Positions 15,224-57,158 of a stretch of 64,000 nt of DNA are shown piece after piece. The position numbers were made by a program, and so were the translations under genes. The notes under the pieces are model-generated. The model was not told the origin of the DNA and did no database searches. It saw nothing but the letters and a program-made list of their open reading frames with translations. The stretch comes from Pseudomonadota bacterium (lineage in GTDB: Bacteria; Pseudomonadota; Gammaproteobacteria; Burkholderiales; Thiobacillaceae): the NCBI GenBank assembly GCA_029558905.1, contig JAKQCX010000025.1:1-64000 (forward strand), read 5' to 3'. The stretch's first letter is position 1; the number at the start of each line of letters is the position of its first letter.

Positions 15224-15739
15224 ATGGATCGACAAGAACGGCTGCGCCAAACCCTCCAGACCCTGGTGCAGGACCTGCGCAGCAACCTGCAGGAAATCGG
15301 CCAGGATTCCCTGCCCCAGGCCCAGCTCGTGACCAACACACGGGATCGCCTGCGCTACATCGCCAGTCTCACCGAACAGGCGGCCAGCCAGACGCTCAAT
15401 GCCACCGAAAACATCGGGGAGCGCCTGCGCGGTCAGCGCAGGGAAGCCAGCTCGCTCGCCCGGCACACCCGCTCCCCGCGCATACGCGCCTTTCTGGCCA
15501 GTCTGGAAAGCGAGCACAGTCTCTCCGCGGACGAACTCTCGGAAGTCATCCAGGCCCAGGCCTTCCAGGACCTGGTCGGACAAGTGATCAACAAGCTGCT
15601 GGTCACGGTGGAGAGGATGGAGAAGGGACTTGCCCATCTGCTCATCGAGGAGGAAAAAGACCCGGGGCTGTTGGCCGGGCCCCAGGTGAAGGTCGAAGAA
15701 CGGATCAGCCAGGACGACATCGACAGGCTTTTCGATTGA
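15224..15739 (+). CDS. cheZ: Chemotaxis protein phosphatase CheZ (short form)
   Basis: The 171-residue protein resembles CheZ, which dephosphorylates CheY-P. The catalytic helix reads FQDLVGQVI, with the Asp and Gln that correspond to the two catalytic residues of enterobacterial CheZ. The C-terminal peptide SQDDIDRLFD matches the CheY-binding tail. It is about 40 residues shorter than the E. coli protein, mainly at the N-terminal hairpin. No other che gene is adjacent; a chemoreceptor is encoded at 53,415. Confidence 0.88.
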   Translation: MDRQERLRQTLQTLVQDLRSNLQEIGQDSLPQAQLVTNTRDRLRYIASLTEQAASQTLNATENIGERLRGQRREASSLARHTRSPRIRAFLASLESEHSLSADELSEVIQAQAFQDLVGQVINKLLVTVERMEKGLAHLLIEEEKDPGLLAGPQVKVEERISQDDIDRLFD

Positions 15740-17233: not shown

Positions 17234-17636
17234 GGTTTCGCTCCTGTAGAGATAAGGGGTCGGTCAGTGAAGGCGAGCCCCGGGATGACACGCGGGACAC
17301 GGACCCGAACCCATAGTCTATGCAGGCGCGATTTTCTAAGCCAATCGCATGCGGCAATGATATGGATAGACGCAGACTATCTTTTCCATGGAATAAATTG
17401 CATTGTTATCAGTGCACATGGATACCACTGATGGCAACCATACAGACGTACGGACGATATAGGTACTTATGTACCAATGTCATGGCTTTGTATGCTAGTG
17501 TTGCGCACGCATTCATGTGTCGATAACCGCCGGACAGGCCGTGAGCCTGAATCCTCGGCCTGCAGTTTTCACCCATGTGCAACCGCTTGGCCGATCCAGG
17601 CGACCACCCTCCCTCATAGAGCAAGGAGAAACCCCC
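17234..17636. other. katA-fccA divergent intergenic region
   Basis: This 403-base region separates two divergently read genes and is clearly more AT-rich than its surroundings between about 17,330 and 17,520. It holds the OxyR-like dyad and a small inverted repeat GGTAC-TTAT-GTACC (17,462-17,475) that could be an operator for fccAB. The fccA ribosome site AGGAG precedes ATG 17,637. Confidence 0.6.
17365..17381. promoter_or_regulatory. OxyR-like binding dyad upstream of katA
   Basis: GATAG, seven bases, CTATC: this is the ATAG-N7-CTAT half of the OxyR consensus with both arms extended by one matching base. The next seven bases are followed by ATGG, close to the third ATAG element; the fourth element is poor. 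Location upstream of a catalase gene fits peroxide induction. Confidence 0.6.
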
Positions 17637-17939
17637 ATGACGAAACAATCTCCCCTCGCGGCGGCTGTGCTGGCCTGCCTGAGCATGGCCGGCCCTACCC
17701 AGGCCGAGGACCTGCACATCAAGGTCATCGCCGCCACCTGCGTCAACTGCCATGGCCAAGGCGGCCAGAGCCTGGGGGCCGTGCCCAGCCTGGCCGGTCA
17801 GGACGTCGCCTACCTGCAAACCGCCATGCTGGAGCAACGCTCGGGCGTGCGCGAGACCACGGTCATGCGGCGTTACATGAACGGCTATACCGACACCGAA
17901 ATTGCCAAGCTGGCCGAGCATTTCTCCCGGCTGAAGTAA
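17637..17939 (+). CDS. fccA: Flavocytochrome c sulfide dehydrogenase, cytochrome subunit (monohaem)
   Basis: The 100-residue protein has a Sec signal (cut after TQA) and one CVNCH haem-c motif, with a likely axial methionine late in the chain (MRRYMNGY). It is the electron-accepting cytochrome partner of the flavoprotein encoded 26 bases downstream. The Allochromatium FccA is dihaem and larger; this one resembles the shorter monohaem SoxE/FccA forms. It acts in the periplasm, passing electrons from sulfide to the respiratory chain. Confidence 0.88.
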   Translation: MTKQSPLAAAVLACLSMAGPTQAEDLHIKVIAATCVNCHGQGGQSLGAVPSLAGQDVAYLQTAMLEQRSGVRETTVMRRYMNGYTDTEIAKLAEHFSRLK

Positions 17940-17965
17940 GAACAAAAACCATCAGAGGAACGAAA

Positions 17966-19234
17966 ATGAACCCGAATCGCCGCCAGTTTCTGCACGCATC
18001 CGTCGCCTCCATGGCCCTTGCCGCCGCGTCCGGCAATGCGTTCGCCAAATCCGGCAAGTCCCACCCCCATGTGGTGGTGGTGGGTGCCGGCTGGGGGGGC
18101 GCCACCTGCGCCAAGTATCTGCGCCTGTGGGACCCCGGCATCCAGGTCACCCTGATCGAGCCCAACCCACATTTCATCTCCTGTCCCATGTCCAACTGGG
18201 TGGTCGGCGGCTTCCAGGATTTCGATTATCTGGTCAAGAGCTATGACAACCTGCCCCGATATGGCATACAAATGTTGCAGGATCTTGTGATCGGCGTGGA
18301 TGCGGACAAGCAGGTCGTGCGTACCCGGGGTGGCCGGCGGATCCGCTACGACCGTCTGGTTCTGGCGCCCGGCATGGAATGGATGACCGAGACCGTGGAG
18401 GGTTACGAGGATGGTGCCAAGGCGCAAAAAGTCATGCATGCCTTCCGCGCCGGACCGGAAACCCTGCTCCTGCGCAAACAGCTGGAAGCCATGCCCGATG
18501 GTGGCGTGTTCATCATTGCCAGCCCGCCCCGGCCCGGCCGATGCGTGTCCGGGCCTTACGAGCGTGCCTGTGCCGCGGCCCACTACTTCAAGCAACACAA
18601 GCCCAAATCCAAGATCATCATGCTGGATGGCGACATCGATATCGTATCCAAGGGCCCGATGTTCAAAGCCGCCTGGAAGGAATTTTATCCGGGCATGATC
18701 GAACACCGGCCCAATAACCTGGCCATGGGCTTCGACCACAGGGAGATGGTCGTGCGCACCGAATTCGAGGACGTCAAGGGCGACGTGGTGAACATCATCC
18801 CCCCGCAGCGCGCCCCCCGGCTGTGCAAGGACGTGGGCGTGCGCAACGACGCCCTGGACCGCTGGTGTGGCATAGATTTCGTCACCTATGAGTCCACTTC
18901 AGTGCCCAAGGTGCATGTGATCGGTGACCCGGTGTTGTCCAACATGCCGAAATCCGCGCATGTATCCAACAACCAGGCCAAGATCTGCGCCGCCGCCCTC
19001 ATCGAGATCCTGAACGACCGGCAGCCACTGCCCACCCCCGTCATCGGCAGTACCAGCTACTCCATCACCTCGGATCACACCTCCGGCTCCATCGCCGTGG
19101 TGATGCGCTACGACCCGGCGAAGAAGGCGTACATCCGCCAGCCTGAAGGTGGCGCCAACACCCGCCACAGCGAGCTCGATTTCGCGTATGGCCGGGCCTG
19201 GCACGAGAACATGTGGGCTGACACCCTGGGCTGA
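17966..19234 (+). CDS. fccB: Flavocytochrome c sulfide dehydrogenase, flavoprotein subunit
   Basis: The 422-residue protein has a Tat signal (NRRQFLH), a dinucleotide-binding motif VVVGAGWGGA near residue 40, and Cys in HFISCPMSNW where FccB attaches FAD covalently. It also has the two cysteines (PGRCVSGP and PRLCKDVG) expected to form the redox-active disulfide. The C-terminal FCSD domain is complete. It oxidises sulfide to sulfur/polysulfide in the periplasm and hands electrons to FccA. Its presence points to sulfur-based chemolithotrophy. Confidence 0.93.
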   Translation: MNPNRRQFLHASVASMALAAASGNAFAKSGKSHPHVVVVGAGWGGATCAKYLRLWDPGIQVTLIEPNPHFISCPMSNWVVGGFQDFDYLVKSYDNLPRYGIQMLQDLVIGVDADKQVVRTRGGRRIRYDRLVLAPGMEWMTETVEGYEDGAKAQKVMHAFRAGPETLLLRKQLEAMPDGGVFIIASPPRPGRCVSGPYERACAAAHYFKQHKPKSKIIMLDGDIDIVSKGPMFKAAWKEFYPGMIEHRPNNLAMGFDHREMVVRTEFEDVKGDVVNIIPPQRAPRLCKDVGVRNDALDRWCGIDFVTYESTSVPKVHVIGDPVLSNMPKSAHVSNNQAKICAAALIEILNDRQPLPTPVIGSTSYSITSDHTSGSIAVVMRYDPAKKAYIRQPEGGANTRHSELDFAYGRAWHENMWADTLG

Positions 19235-48837: not shown

Positions 48838-51800
48838 ATGGATTTTCAGCACATCCAAGCACAAGAGCCCCCGTTCCAAGGAGATCGCGGGGACCCGTGC
48901 CGCCAGGCGGGCAACGCCGTGGGCCTGGCGTTTTCAGGGGGCGGCATCCGCAGCGCCACCTTCAATCTGGGCATCCTGCAAGGCATGGCCCGGCGTGGTC
49001 TGCTCAAGCATGTGGATTACCTGTCCACCGTCTCCGGAGGCGGCTACATCGGTGCCTGGTACATGGCCTTCCTCAAGCGTCAGGCGCAGAACCAGCCCAT
49101 CCAGGCTGAAGACATGCTCGACCCGGAGGGCCCACGTCGCCCCGGCGAGCCGGTGGAACACCCCTCCATTACCTGGCTGCGCCGCTTCAGCAACTACCTC
49201 ACGCCCCGCACCGGCCTGTCCGGAGACAGTCTGACCCTGGTTTCCACCTACCTGCGCAATCTGTTGCTCAACCTCATCGTCATCCTCAGTTTCCTGGGTG
49301 TCCTGCTGCTCGTGCCCCGGGCCCTGGCCTGGAGCGTGCCCTATCTCTGGTATCTGGAGATCCTGCCCTTCCTGGCCACGCTGCCCCTGGTGTTCGCCGT
49401 GCTTTCCCTGCCCGTTCTGCTGCTCAACATGCACCAGGGCACACGTGCCGCGGAGCCCTGGTGGAAAAGCCAAGCCGGGGTATTGCTGCTGGTGGTGCTG
49501 CCCGCCATGCTCGCCGCCTTCTTTCTGAGCCTGAGCCTGGCCTCACCGGCCTTTGGTCCCTGGACCGCGCATGCAGCCCGCATCCTGACGCGGCACATGC
49601 CTTTCCTGGGCAGCCGGATGCTGGACGACTCCCTGTTGATCACCCAGTTCATCGCCACGCTCATCTATCTCGTGCCATGGATCCTGGCTGCGGTATGGAT
49701 CTGGTTCCGGCGGCGGGACATCCCGCGTGCGGCCGCTCCGGCGCTCGTCCTTTCGGCACTGGGCACCAGCATCGCCGCCGGTCTGATGTTCTTCGGCCTG
49801 GCCCACCTGGCGGCCCTCACCTTTCCGACCCCCTTCGAACTGGTCATTTTCGGTCCACCCCTGGTGCTGACGGCGTTCATGTTGCCGGTGGCCCTGCACA
49901 TCGGCCTGGCCCGGCGCCGATTTTCCGACATGCAACGCGAATGGTGGGCACGCCTGGGAGGTTGGCTGCTGACCCTCATGCTGGCCTGGCTGCTGCTGTT
50001 CGGCCTGGCCTTCTTCGGCGCCCCCCTCCTGGGACTGCTGAATGACTGGGTGGCCACCAGCGGCGGATTGGCCTGGGCGGCCACCACCCTTTGGGGTGTC
50101 CTGGCCGGCAAGTCGGCAAACCGCAATACACCCGGAAAGGGCCTGCGCGAAACACTGCTGGGCCTGGCACCCTGGGTGTTCCTGCTGGGTCTGCTGCTGC
50201 TCCTGAGCCTGGCCATGCAAAAGGGCCTGGAAGCCCCCTGGGAGGACGCGCCCGGGCGAGGAACCAGCACGGTCGCGCACACCATGCCGGGTAAGGGCCT
50301 GGAAGCGTGGCGCGCGGCCATCGCGCCCCAGCATGGCGCGGTCTCCTTGGAGTCGGTAGCCGGCGCCGGAAGCGTGCTGCTTACCCTGTTCGCGCTGTTC
50401 GGCTGGCGCATCGACATCAATCTGTTCTCCCTGCACAACTTCTACCGCAACCGGCTCACGCGCTGCTACCTGGGTGCCTCCCGCCATTGTGGCGAGCTGG
50501 ACCGCGGCTGGCCCGGCTGTCGCAAGCCCGATGCCTTCACCGGCTTCGATCCGGACGACGATCTGGCGGTCTCGGAACTGGGGCCACGGCCCTATCCCCT
50601 GTTCAACACCGCCTTGAACCTGGTGGGCGGTGAGGAACTGGCCTGGCAACAGCGCAAGGCGGCATCCTTCTGCATCACCCCACGCAGCAGTGGCTATCAG
50701 TTCCCACCGGGGATGGCCGATGCGCAGATCCAGCCCACCTACGGCCCCAGCGACATCTTTATGTCCGGGGAATCACGCAGCGGCGGGATACGCGTGGGCA
50801 CCGCCATGGCCATCTCGGGCGCGGCGGTGAATCCCAGCATGGGCTTCCATTCCTCCCGGGAAGTGTCCTTCCTGCTCACCGTGTTCAACGTGCGCCTGGG
50901 TCGCTGGGTGGGGAATCCAGCACACGCCGCCACCTGGCGCAAAACCAGTCCGGGCTTTGGTGTGCGCTACCTGTTTCTCGAGCTGTTCGGCATGACCTCG
51001 GCAAGGCGTCCCTGGCTGAACCTGTCGGATGGGGGCCACTTCGAGAACCTGGGACTGTACGAACTGGTACGCCGGCGCCTGCCTTACATCATCGTCAGCG
51101 ATGCCGCCGAGGATGCGGACTATCACTTCGATGACCTGGCCAATGCCATCCGCAAGGTGCGCGCGGATTTCGGCATCGATATCGAAATCGATGTCTCCGG
51201 CATGCGTCCCAGCGAGCCAGGCGGACGACAGCGGACCTGCGCCACGGTGGGCAGCATCCGCTACGATCGGCTCGACCACGGCCTGCGTCCCGGTGTGCTC
51301 GTCTACATACGTCCCGGCCTGACCGGCGACGAACCCGTCGATGTGCTCGGCTACGCCAGCTTGCACCCGTCCTTCCCCTTCCAGAGCACCACGGACCAGT
51401 TCTTCGACGAGTCCCAGTTCGAAAGCTACCGCCAGCTTGGGCTGCATATCGCCAAAAAGGTATTTGCGGAAGCGGCGCAGCGCCAGCCCACGCGCAGGGG
51501 ATTTTTCAATGTCGAGGCCTTCTTCACCGTACTCAAGGAAAGCTGGCGCGGCCGGCTGGCGGTCGACCCGGACAGCGCGCAAAGGCTGCACATACGCCTG
51601 GACGACCTGTTCGAGCGCCTGCGCAAGGACCCGGATCTGGCCTTCCTGTCCGCGGAGATATTCCCAGAATGGCCGAATCTCATGGGCCGGCCACCCACGC
51701 CCCCGCAGCTCCCGCCCTTCGAAGCGCAGCGCCGCGCCGGCTTCTATGTATGCCGTGAGATCGCCCAGTTCATGGAGCGCGCCTACCTGGATCTGAACCT

Positions 51801-52452
51801 GGAAGAGCATCATGACCACCCGGACAGCCGGGCCTGGATGAATCTGTTCCGGCACTGGTCCTGGTCACCCATGTTCCGGGTGACCTACGCCATCACCGCC
51901 TCCACCCTGAGCGAACGCTTCCAGCGCTTCTGCGGACGTCACCTGGATCTGCGCCTGGGAGATGCGGAGATCTGCCTGAGCACCCTGTCCGAGGCGGCAC
52001 TCAATCGCCTCAACTTCCTCGAGCGCGACCTGGTGAAAAGACTGCTGGCGACAGCCCCCGACCGCGAGGGCGCGTCAGGGCATGACCTGGTGCGTTTCGA
52101 ACTGGTGGTCGCCAACCCGATCGACCATGCCAAGGCGGCGCACTTCGCCTTGCTGCACTTCCATTTCGGCTTTGCCCTGCTGGAAGATCGGCAGCTGGTC
52201 TATTTCCGCGTACAGGATCACCTGCGCCGTATGGGACTGGCACGGCAGGCCATGAGCCTGCTGCTGGCACGCGAACCGGACCTGGTCATGGACCTGGAAG
52301 CCTGCACCCGGCGACTGCGAGGCGTGGATGTCCCGCAATCGGAATCGAGGGTCCTGTACCAGTTGTACCAATCGGTCCAGCACATCCAACACAGCCGGGA
52401 CCCCCTTCCTTCCCGGGCATCTTCCACAGGAGGACGACATGGAGACACTTAG
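48838..52452 (+). CDS. Large polytopic patatin-like phospholipase
   Basis: The 1204-residue protein starts with a patatin half-domain: phosphate-binding FSGGGIRSATF (32-42) and nucleophile Ser66 in STVSGGGYIG, which is GxSxG-like with valine instead of the first glycine. About ten hydrophobic helices occupy roughly 140-525. The second patatin half follows, with catalytic aspartate Asp731 in LSDGGHFENLGLYEL. A long charged C-terminal part (about 800-1204) has no recognised domain. The catalytic dyad is thus split by a membrane insertion. It probably hydrolyses membrane lipids. It overlaps the next gene by 14 bases. Confidence 0.82.
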   Translation: MDFQHIQAQEPPFQGDRGDPCRQAGNAVGLAFSGGGIRSATFNLGILQGMARRGLLKHVDYLSTVSGGGYIGAWYMAFLKRQAQNQPIQAEDMLDPEGPRRPGEPVEHPSITWLRRFSNYLTPRTGLSGDSLTLVSTYLRNLLLNLIVILSFLGVLLLVPRALAWSVPYLWYLEILPFLATLPLVFAVLSLPVLLLNMHQGTRAAEPWWKSQAGVLLLVVLPAMLAAFFLSLSLASPAFGPWTAHAARILTRHMPFLGSRMLDDSLLITQFIATLIYLVPWILAAVWIWFRRRDIPRAAAPALVLSALGTSIAAGLMFFGLAHLAALTFPTPFELVIFGPPLVLTAFMLPVALHIGLARRRFSDMQREWWARLGGWLLTLMLAWLLLFGLAFFGAPLLGLLNDWVATSGGLAWAATTLWGVLAGKSANRNTPGKGLRETLLGLAPWVFLLGLLLLLSLAMQKGLEAPWEDAPGRGTSTVAHTMPGKGLEAWRAAIAPQHGAVSLESVAGAGSVLLTLFALFGWRIDINLFSLHNFYRNRLTRCYLGASRHCGELDRGWPGCRKPDAFTGFDPDDDLAVSELGPRPYPLFNTALNLVGGEELAWQQRKAASFCITPRSSGYQFPPGMADAQIQPTYGPSDIFMSGESRSGGIRVGTAMAISGAAVNPSMGFHSSREVSFLLTVFNVRLGRWVGNPAHAATWRKTSPGFGVRYLFLELFGMTSARRPWLNLSDGGHFENLGLYELVRRRLPYIIVSDAAEDADYHFDDLANAIRKVRADFGIDIEIDVSGMRPSEPGGRQRTCATVGSIRYDRLDHGLRPGVLVYIRPGLTGDEPVDVLGYASLHPSFPFQSTTDQFFDESQFESYRQLGLHIAKKVFAEAAQRQPTRRGFFNVEAFFTVLKESWRGRLAVDPDSAQRLHIRLDDLFERLRKDPDLAFLSAEIFPEWPNLMGRPPTPPQLPPFEAQRRAGFYVCREIAQFMERAYLDLNLEEHHDHPDSRAWMNLFRHWSWSPMFRVTYAITASTLSERFQRFCGRHLDLRLGDAEICLSTLSEAALNRLNFLERDLVKRLLATAPDREGASGHDLVRFELVVANPIDHAKAAHFALLHFHFGFALLEDRQLVYFRVQDHLRRMGLARQAMSLLLAREPDLVMDLEACTRRLRGVDVPQSESRVLYQLYQSVQHIQHSRDPLPSRASSTGGRHGDT

Positions 52453-53414: not shown

Positions 53415-55025
53415 ATGAACCAAAAGCGGACCCACTCCCTGCAGGCACGTATCCTACTGGCCATCAGCCTGGCCTTTGTCCTTGTCCTGCTGGTCTCCAG
53501 TGCGCTGACCTATCGCAGCGAGCATGCCCTGGCCGAAAAGATCGGCATGGACAAGGCCAAGGACATGGCGCGCACCTATTTCGATGGCGTCAACCGCATG
53601 ATGCTGTCCGGTACGACGGAGCAGAAGGAGGATCTGCGCCAGTCCATGATCGCCCAGGGCAGCCTGCTGGACGTCGGCATCGTGCACGCCGGGGATGCTC
53701 TGCGGGACATGGCCCGAAAGGCTTCGCCCCCCCGGGATGAACTGGACCGTCGTGCCCTGGCAGGCGAGACCGTGCATGTCCTGGTGGAGACCGATGACGG
53801 GCGCAACGTCATCCATGTGGCACCCCTGAAAGCCAGCCGCAACTATCTGGGCACGAATTGCCTGGGCTGCCATCAGGTCCCGGAAGGCACCATCCTGGGG
53901 GCCGTGCGGGCCACCTATTCCCTGAAGGTGCTGGACGCCCAGATCCGTGAGAACCTGCTCATCAACGGCCTGGTCAATCTGGGCCTGTTCATCCTTGGCC
54001 TGGGCCTGGTGATCTGGCTGTTGCGGCGCATCGTGATCCTGCCCCTGACATCCATGCGTCAGTCCATGCAACGCATCGAGGCGCAAGCCGACCTGAGCCA
54101 CCGTCTCACGCCTCGGGGGGAAGACGAGGTGGGCGTGCTGTCCCAGGCCATCAACAGCATGCTGGCCAAGTTCACCAACAGCCTTACCCTGGTGGCGGAG
54201 ACCTCCGGGCACCTGTCCAGCGCGGCGGAGCACATCGCCAGCGTCTCGGAACGCACCGCCGCGCAGGCAGGCAGGCAGCAGGCGGAAAGCCAGGATGCCG
54301 CCAGGCATGTGAGCGATCTCAAGGACATTGCCGCCCAGGTGGGCGGCAATGCACAACATGCGGCCGCCGCATCCGTGCAAACGGACCAGGAAGCGATACG
54401 CGGCATCGAGATGACCCGCGAAGCCATCCGCGGCATTGCCAGCCTGCTGCAGGAGATTTCCCAGGCCGTGCAGGCCATCGGCCAACTCAACGATAGAAGC
54501 CGGAATGTGAGCCAGGTACTGGATGTCATCCGCGGCATCGCCGAGCAGACCAATCTCCTGGCCCTGAATGCCGCCATCGAGGCCGCGCGCGCGGGAGAGG
54601 CCGGACGCGGCTTTGCCGTGGTGGCGGACGAGGTGCGCAAGCTTGCCACCCTGTCCCAGGATTCCACACGCAGCATCGAAGAAACTGTGCGTCTGCTACA
54701 GGCGGAAGCCGGCCAGGCCGTGCTCGCCATGAGCAATGCGCGCGACAAGGCCGAACTCAATCATGCCCAACTGGATCAGGCCATGCAGAGCCTGGATCAG
54801 ATCGTGGCAAGGATCGCGCAAATCCGCGCGCTCAACGACGACATGTCGCAGGCGGTGGAACGCCAGTGCGACCTCACGGAACGTGTCAACCAGCGCGTAC
54901 AGGCCGTCAACGATCTTGCCGGCCGCACCGCCCAGGAGGCCATGGAGAGCCGCGCCCAGAGCGAAACCCTGGTGAACCTGGCGCGGGAACTGAATGGCCT
55001 CGTCGGGCGTTTCCACCTGGGCTGA
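53415..55025 (+). CDS. Methyl-accepting chemoreceptor with CxxCH haem-binding motif
   Basis: The 536-residue protein has a first membrane helix (about 12-32), a periplasmic sensor (about 33-182), a second helix (185-207), a HAMP domain and a signalling domain with the hairpin tip [19 protein letters not shown]. The sensor contains CLGCH (Cys149, Cys152, His153), a haem-c attachment site, near NYLGTN. It resembles the DUF3365/Tll0287-like haem sensors. It likely responds to redox state, oxygen or NO. It is encoded 175 bases after the GH19 gene and is probably transcribed separately. Confidence 0.88.
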
Positions 55026-55677: not shown

Positions 55678-56046
55678 CTACACCACACTGCCGAAGCTCT
55701 GATCCTGTGCACCCGCCAGTGCCTCCAGGCCAGCCAGCCTGAACCCCTGGGACACGGGGCCCTGGGGGAAGAGCCGATAGAGCTGCTTGATGCCGCCCTC
55801 GGCATGGAAGTGCTCATCCAGGGCATCGTGCAGTTCGCGGAAATTGATATTGCCGTCCTCCTGTCGGGCATGGTAGTCCTGCAAGGCACGAATCACCCGC
55901 CAATGGGCCGGGGTCAGTTGCAGGTTTTCACGCCGGGCCTGCTGTTCCGCCATATCCCGGGACCAATCCGCGGGGGCGTGGGGGAATTCCGGATCCGTAT
56001 GAAATTCGTAGCCGGGTCTTTCGATGCGTTGCGTGCTTTGGTTCAT
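55678..56046 (-). CDS. rspA: DsrC/TusE-family protein lacking both cysteines (RspA-type)
   Basis: The 122-residue protein has the DsrC fold signature: RNLQLTPAHWRVIRAL-like HTH, GGIKQLYRLFPQGPVSQGF and SFGSVV at the C-terminus. In DsrC the GPVxQGC and AGCxDxSFGSVQ positions hold two redox cysteines; here they are Phe and Ala. Proteins with neither cysteine have been grouped as RspA and are thought to be regulatory rather than sulfur-relay. ATG 56,046 is nine bases after GGAGG; an ATG six bases upstream has poor spacing. Confidence 0.85.
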   Translation of the reverse strand: MNQSTQRIERPGYEFHTDPEFPHAPADWSRDMAEQQARRENLQLTPAHWRVIRALQDYHARQEDGNINFRELHDALDEHFHAEGGIKQLYRLFPQGPVSQGFRLAGLEALAGAQDQSFGSVV

Positions 56047-56213
56047 CTTCATTCTCCTCCGGTTGTCTCCACCCGAGTACCGGTGGAGATACCACTTCAC
56101 ACTAGTCGAACCGGCCCGGCATGCAAGCCGGTTATGATATGCAGCACAGCTCTGCGCCCACACGGGCCAGGGATGGCACCTCACCGCAAGACGCTCCACA
56201 AGTATCCGCCCAC

Positions 56214-57158
56214 ATGCCCGACTCCTGGAAAGACAGCATCTATCAACAGCGGGAACGCCTGGGCCGTCTGCTGCATGAGCCCCTCGCCCATCTGGCGCAG
56301 GCCTGTGCCCCCGCATGGGAAGACCGGCAGGCCCTGAATGACGTGCTGTCGCAGGGGTTTGCCCACATCCCCCACTGCAAGTTCCTGTACTGCGTGGCCA
56401 CGAACGGTATCCAGATCTGCGACAACGTGGACCTGAACGGGCTGGTGGCCGGGCATTTCGGCCGTGACCGCTCCATGCGGCCCTACATGAACGAGGCCGT
56501 GCCGGTGTGGGGTTTCCTGCTCTCGGATGCCTACATCAGCCTGCTGGGCAAGCGCCCTTCCCTCACCGCCCTGCAGATCGTGCGCCGGAATGAGAGGGTA
56601 TTGGGGTATCTGGGGGCGGACTTCGACCTGCGGGATCTGCCCGCGCATGGAGACCGTTACCAGGAATCCAGCGAATGGCGTCAGATCCGGGGTGATCCGG
56701 CCATCCGCGGTACCGTCATGCAGCAATGCCGGGTGGACAGCCCCATGGACCGCAGCCTGGACCAGTCCATGTCCATTCTGGAGGAGCTGATGACGGAGCG
56801 GGGCGTGTTCCAGGCCGTCATCCACTTTTCCAGCAGCCGCGCCACGGTCTGGACACTGGACGACCCTTACCGTTATCGACTCCTGGATCAGGAAGCCCTG
56901 GCGGACCCGGACATCTGCCTGGTATATCCCGCCATTAGCTATCCCGCCGAGGTCCTCATCCCCAAGCAGGACATCGCCCCCATCCTGGAGACCCTGAAGG
57001 CCCTGCGCATGGCGGACGAAAACATCTATCTGCGCATGGCCTCCATCAACCTGTTCAACGGCATGGTCAGCCTCACCTTCTCCTGCGACGGCAGCCACTA
57101 CATGCGCTGGGATGAATTCCTCGACCGCAACCTGGGGTTCTGGCTCGGGGCGAGCTGA
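56214..57158 (+). CDS. PDC-sensor-domain protein (soluble)
   Basis: The 314-residue protein has two PDC/Cache-like segments (about 25-135: YCVATNGIQICDNVDLNG, GRDRSMRPYMNEAVPVWGF; and 150-290). There is no membrane helix or output domain. Proteins of this kind have been labelled PDC sensor domain-containing and bind small ligands. ATG 56,214 was chosen for want of a better site; ATG 56,121 is possible. It is divergent from rspA. Confidence 0.7.
   Translation: MPDSWKDSIYQQRERLGRLLHEPLAHLAQACAPAWEDRQALNDVLSQGFAHIPHCKFLYCVATNGIQICDNVDLNGLVAGHFGRDRSMRPYMNEAVPVWGFLLSDAYISLLGKRPSLTALQIVRRNERVLGYLGADFDLRDLPAHGDRYQESSEWRQIRGDPAIRGTVMQQCRVDSPMDRSLDQSMSILEELMTERGVFQAVIHFSSSRATVWTLDDPYRYRLLDQEALADPDICLVYPAISYPAEVLIPKQDIAPILETLKALRMADENIYLRMASINLFNGMVSLTFSCDGSHYMRWDEFLDRNLGFWLGAS

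Follow-up and report, generated by a model that had tools for sequence, protein, structure and literature searches.

The open reading frame at positions 53415-55025 (+) of the window, i. e. of the whole stretch of 64,000 nucleotides analysed here, raises the question whether its product is a chemoreceptor with a covalently bound haem in the sensor and, if so, what the haem would report and to which partner.

Architecture of the receptor

The frame is open throughout, starts with ATG and encodes 536 amino acids. Pfam found a HAMP domain at residues 202-251 (54018-54167, +; PF00672, E 9.9e-11) and an MCP signalling domain at residues 346-501 (54450-54917, +; PF00015, E 5.4e-43). By hydropathy there are two membrane spans, at about residues 9-33 (53439-53513, +) and within residues 181-214 (53955-54056, +), leaving residues from about 34 to 180 (53514-53954, +) outside. 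With its spans followed by HAMP and an MCP signalling domain, the protein is by Pfam and hydropathy a methyl-accepting chemotaxis protein, and the chemoreceptor that an earlier note had recognised here is thereby borne out. The periplasmic part is described below as a haem-c sensor of the Cache type, on the basis of a structure model with a single Cache fold, fold searches and the match of a family profile to the PDB entries 3b42 and 3b47.

The motif CLGCH (53859-53873, +) begins at residue 149 and sits between the two spans, i. e. exactly at residues 149-153 of the periplasmic part as noted earlier. Since the receptor contains three cysteines and only about 0.0004 CXXCH motifs are expected from its composition, a chance occurrence is unlikely. 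A scan for a sigma-28 type promoter upstream of the gene found none, the best candidate agreeing with the consensus at 9 of 16 bases.

The gene neighbours, which comprise a patatin-like protein, a peptidoglycan-binding protein and a DsrC-like frame, offer no functional link to the receptor. The first is a protein of 1204 amino acids (48838-52452) whose start is patatin-like and whose middle is hydrophobic; the frame with the DsrC-like domain lies at 55678-56316 (-). A frame of 345 amino acids downstream of the receptor (56121-57158) had no Pfam match at E 0.01.

Conservation and kinship of the sensor

To follow the motif through related genomes the sensor alone was searched at E 0.001 in 101 genomes, namely the window's own and 100 relatives. 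It was matched at 82 places in 44 of these genomes (own included), and CXXCH was present at all 82, albeit the weakest matches depend on the motif region itself and are less informative. At the level of sequence this conservation is stronger evidence than the composition statistic that the motif is no chance product. One of the genes (L082) is broken by a frame change and carries CXXCH in its second piece. A search of named genomes gave five loci; one of them, L039, is the same gene as L025, and the four others have CXXCH as well. In the alignment A1 (82 rows; L057 and L082 omitted as partial) Met63, Cys149, Cys152, His153 and Gly162 never vary.

The same pattern was found in a sample of the class (369 genomes, E 1e-5), where the sensor domain matched at 77 places in 58 genomes (own included), a count that may be low because at most ten candidates were scored per genome. 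The alignment A4 of 76 rows, i. e. the window's sensor and 75 of the 76 other places of this sample (the remnant L176 was omitted), shows Met63, Pro137, both cysteines, His153 and Gly162 invariant in 76 of 76. When all loci were pooled (165 domain hits, 163 of them distinct), 163 of the 165 had CXXCH and 164 had the methionine. Only the two pieces of L082, in which methionine and motif lie apart, and the deletion remnant L176 deviate. In the latter (L176:454-789) the haem motif was lost through a deletion that also fused the start of the sensor to the apparent end of an HD-GYP protein. A limited search of the open-licence literature found no description of an invariant methionine across this branch of sensors.

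The kinship of the sensor is visible only through the family. The single receptor sequence gave no sensor-family match in Pfam even at E 1, none in NCBIfam above its cut-off, and none to a related PDB chain by phmmer. These blank searches first pointed to a sensor of a new kind, a reading that was dropped when the family profile matched the haem-c sensors of Geobacter. With A1 as the profile, 3b42 (GSU0935) was matched at E 1.9e-7 and 3b47 (GSU0582) at E 7.8e-7, both over the whole domain; with A4, which is built mainly from other genomes, the values were 2.8e-7 for 3b47 and 2.5e-4 for 3b42. The bare CXXCH motif accounts for some of this score; plain cytochromes appeared at E 0.07 and up (A1) or from 0.0027 (A4) and were matched over short stretches only. 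In the HMMER alignment the invariant methionine falls on position 26 of chain 3b42 and the histidine of CXXCH on position 110. The latter is His144 in the numbering used in the available part of PMC8396549, and therefore the methionine at position 26 is Met60. Met63 of the receptor (53601-53603, +), invariant in our alignments, thus aligns with Met60 of GSU0935 and is the predicted distal haem ligand.

The two Pfam families that one would name here cover the branch poorly. At E 1, PF11845 (Tll0287-like) matched 33 of the 82 members of A1, the best at 1.9e-4, and PF21563 (Mcp40H-20_sensor) matched 14; at E 0.01 they matched 9 and 12 of the 76 members of A4, respectively. Neither matched the receptor protein at E 1, and PF21563 had no match anywhere in its genome. 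An NCBIfam scan of the 82 relatives returned mainly matches to HAMP-bearing proteins. By profile, then, the receptor appears to be a Geobacter-type haem-c Cache sensor, a member of "sCache_heme" in the wide sense, outside both PF11845 and PF21563.

A structure model was built from 6 rows (mean pLDDT 79.9) and contains no haem. Its fold is predicted to be a Cache fold, with a first helix that runs from residue 3 to 65 and is continuous from the membrane span. It has CXXCH between strands three and four, in a part of low confidence (pLDDT 53 for residues 141-150 and 66 for 151-160); with this reservation about the region near the motif, the extracytoplasmic Cache fold and the position of CXXCH between strands 3 and 4 are those of sCache_heme in the wide sense. 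In both fold searches the best structural match was the sensor kinase WalK, which is not a haem sensor. In Foldseek a WalK model came first, followed at ranks 2 and 3 by the two chains of 3b42, with low TM-scores to 3b42 (0.48-0.49 by target length, rmsd 13.4), perhaps because the crystal is a swapped dimer. VIA-align also placed WalK first (Z 12.3, rmsd 3.2, 204 residues); Tll0287 (5b82) reached Z 8.1 with rmsd 3.8 over 121 residues, a score shared by many other Cache domains. 3b42 and 3b47 were not among the best 50 entries listed by VIA-align, and their absence there is no evidence of different folds. The case for haem kinship therefore depends on the sequence profile of the family and not on the fold.

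Pfam shows the receptor as an MCP with an unnamed sensor, in which Met63 and His153 can now be named as predicted ligands. The earlier observation is confirmed, the receptor belonging to a known kind of redox or nitric oxide haem sensor, and the invariant methionine is the point added here. The earlier note had such receptors sensing redox state or gases in "a few anaerobes"; the kind is indeed known, but it is not confined to a few, given that 58 of the 369 genomes of the class sample match and that the 2026 preprint PMC12889525, in its available part, describes a wide family.

A proposed haem switch, its possible signal and its partner

The analysis established the architecture, the invariant CXXCH and methionine, and the homology to GSU0935 and GSU0582. 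On this basis we consider it probable that the protein is a transmembrane chemoreceptor whose periplasmic single-Cache sensor holds one covalent c-type haem and works by a ligand switch at His153 and Met63. That the motif should attach haem covalently, as proposed earlier, is strongly supported as a prediction because of the invariant CXXCH, the homology to two crystallised haem-c sensors and the proteins for cytochrome c assembly: three proteins with a Cytochrom_C_asm domain are encoded in the same genome, so that haem c can probably be made.

In the proposed mechanism Cys149 and Cys152 would hold the haem with His153 as the proximal ligand, and Met63, located on the long helix that extends out of the first span, would be the distal one. 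Met63 would be bound to the reduced haem and be freed either by oxidation or by NO or CO on the iron, as suggested by the published Geobacter sensors. In the model this helix reaches from the span as far as residue 65, so that any shift of Met63 would be felt by the helix leading to the membrane. By way of the spans and HAMP the shift might then arrive at the signalling tip and alter, in one direction or the other, the activity of a putative CheA partner.

According to the available part of PMC8396549, the haems of GSU0582 and GSU0935 change from high-spin in the oxidised to low-spin in the reduced state, in which NO and CO displace Met60. In the oxidised crystals Met60 is the distal ligand on only one haem of the GSU0935 dimer, with water on the other and in GSU0582. 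The potentials given are -251 mV (GSU0935) and -156 mV (GSU0582). Redox state and NO are both candidate signals because the findings of this Geobacter review and of PMC12889525, as far as the accessible text of each goes, differ. Methionine and CXXCH alone cannot tell redox sensing from NO sensing, and thus the redoxtaxis suggested earlier is plausible but not separable from a response to NO. That suggestion had been made for a sulfur/hydrogen oxidiser, and its sulfur part agrees with the window, where the frame at 17477-19234 has the domains of a flavocytochrome c sulfide dehydrogenase flavoprotein, which fits sulfur oxidation.

Of the alternatives, a dedicated periplasmic NO sensor survives best. 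Here the haem would stay reduced, NO from a nitrite reductase of the NirS type would displace Met63, and the receptor would steer the cell by NO. The accessible part of PMC12889525 reports tight binding of NO by a membrane-bound sCache_heme protein of P. azotoformans and no stable complex with O2; an NO off-rate near 6e-4 per second is given there. A NirS-type match (Cytochrom_D1, contig C12, E 6.7e-141) is present in the window's genome; periplasmic NO production is therefore possible and NO a plausible signal. Among the 101 genomes, 30 had both the sensor and a strong Cytochrom_D1 match (best E below 1e-60, a threshold of our choice), 14 the sensor only, 21 the Cytochrom_D1 match only and 36 neither (Fisher p 0.0025), and outside the family the association held (5, 1, 9 and 25 in the same order; p 0.014). 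Yet it was absent inside the family (25, 13, 12 and 11; p 0.42) and inside the genus (14, 7, 1 and 1; p 1), and thus kinship may explain what remains. Moreover, a strong match is absent from 14 of the 44 sensor-bearing genomes, and PF02239 is a loose marker that also matches the NirN and NirF types. The protein tested in PMC12889525 is, in the part of that text available, described without an axial cysteine, perhaps with water as the ligand, and may not represent the branch of the receptor. We therefore regard an exclusive NO sensor as possible but somewhat unlikely.

A second alternative, compatible with the ligand switch, concerns the partner: this strain could lack a flagellar chemotaxis partner for the haem receptor, which would then feed the pilus (Pil-Chp) array or nothing. 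CheW domains were found at two places only in the assembly, namely in a CheA-like protein of 1896 amino acids with four Hpt stretches that adjoins PilJ, and in a nearby frame of 191 amino acids; these, the only ones found, form a cluster of the Pil-Chp type. In ten sensor-bearing relatives, picked by hand, there were 5 to 10 CheW places each, and in all ten the CheW domain also occurred in a frame of 625-656 amino acids, the ordinary size of CheA, a frame that the window's genome lacks. On the other hand, the assembly is 89.8% complete, CheZ is encoded in the window, and contig C17 carries near one of its ends FlhA, MotA, a sigma-70 family factor and an SRP54-type GTPase; a che operon may therefore just be missing, and we judge the lack of a flagellar partner unlikely. 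The CheZ gene (15224-15739, +; PF04344, E 4e-24), to which the earlier note had ascribed signal termination, is correctly identified. A link to the receptor is no more than putative, given a distance of about 38 kb and given that all CheW domains found in the assembly belong to the Pil-Chp type cluster.

Direct sensing of oxygen, i. e. aerotaxis by O2 binding to the haem, is very improbable. The title of the paper on DcrA of Desulfovibrio, a chemoreceptor with a c-type haem, does speak of oxygen or redox potential as the signal. But no stable O2 complex is reported for the tested proteins in the accessible part of PMC12889525, and an effect of oxygen is more to be expected through oxidation of the haem, that is, within the mechanism of the ligand switch. 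An ordinary ligand-binding Cache receptor with CXXCH as a metal or disulphide site is hardly credible: small molecules are the usual ligands of Cache domains (PMC12889525, as far as available) and WalK, CitA, DcuS and other Cache domains are among the hits of the fold searches, but histidine and methionine are invariant besides the two cysteines, and the two homologous sensors have haem in their crystal structures.

The wider branch and its relation to known systems

The proposed ligand switch at His153 and Met63 may not be peculiar to this receptor. By simple motifs of the protein tails, outputs were assigned across all 163 distinct hits, among them the pieces and the remnant. There were 91 MCP, 15 GGDEF, 4 GGDEF-EAL and 9 HD-GYP outputs, 9 short pieces and 35 others. 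Thirty of these 35 share a common MCP-like tail of about 480 residues with the motif RRLADQ (L107, L109, L111, L113-L118, L120-L128, L130-L132, L136, L139, L141, L144-L146, L149, L150 and L164), a tail that we take to resemble receptors of the WspA type. The remaining five are the cut frames L065, L119 and L135, the HD-GYP-like L091 and the second piece of L082.

The genome of the window itself encodes two further PF11845 proteins above the cut-off, L094 (G000:C32:83246) and L095 (G000:C7:37155), both with CXXCH. By eye, L094 has GGDEF and then EAL regions after the sensor. L095 is a stand-alone protein and has, again by eye, a cysteine about where the receptor has Met63. In a profile comparison, A1 and L095 aligned over only 51 columns that end at the motif, and A1 and L094 over 120 columns, which begin ahead of the motif and extend into HAMP; in neither case was the first helix covered, and the equivalence of methionine and cysteine between the receptor and L095 is seen by eye only.

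A possible interpretation, which we put forward tentatively, is that the receptor belongs to a large coherent haem-c Cache branch, mostly missed by Pfam, in which the distal methionine is as invariant as CXXCH. With its several outputs (MCP, the second MCP-like tail, GGDEF, GGDEF-EAL and HD-GYP), the branch could represent a general periplasmic redox switch that works by Met/His ligand exchange, and would differ from the stand-alone Cys/His proteins and depart from the preprint's "NO sensor" rule. The strictness of the methionine across outputs could help to decide whether there is one Met-release switch for signalling haem-c Cache domains. This question bears on the choice between redox and NO, on which the studies of the Geobacter sensors and PMC12889525 come to different answers. 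As a whole, the earlier note is partly supported, its observation being correct and its interpretation mostly so.

Among known systems, DcrA of Desulfovibrio vulgaris is, by the title of its paper, a chemoreceptor with a c-type haem like the receptor described here. The resemblance to sCache_heme proteins (DUF3365/Tll0287, PF11845) is more specific. The preprint PMC12889525, in the part accessible, treats them as extracytoplasmic single Cache domains, places CXXCH between the third and fourth strands and describes frequent fusion to signalling outputs; all of this agrees with the receptor. Its main text contains neither "Met" nor "methionine", and for Tll0287 the accessible part gives a His/Cys haem, in contrast to the methionine predicted in the receptor, which PF11845 does not reach.

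The closest counterparts are GSU0935 and GSU0582 of Geobacter sulfurreducens (3b42, 3b47), which are likewise MCPs with a periplasmic sensor, CXXCH and a methionine at the same aligned place. They carry one haem c, whereas the haem of the receptor is predicted from the whole-domain profile homology. The sequences are distant, and the profile of the receptor family has five extra residues just before the motif. The Geobacter sensors are grouped with PF21563 by name only, and this family misses the sensor of the receptor. Nevertheless, the receptor shares with them the homology over the whole domain, the histidine of CXXCH and, at the level of the alignment, a methionine at the place of Met60.
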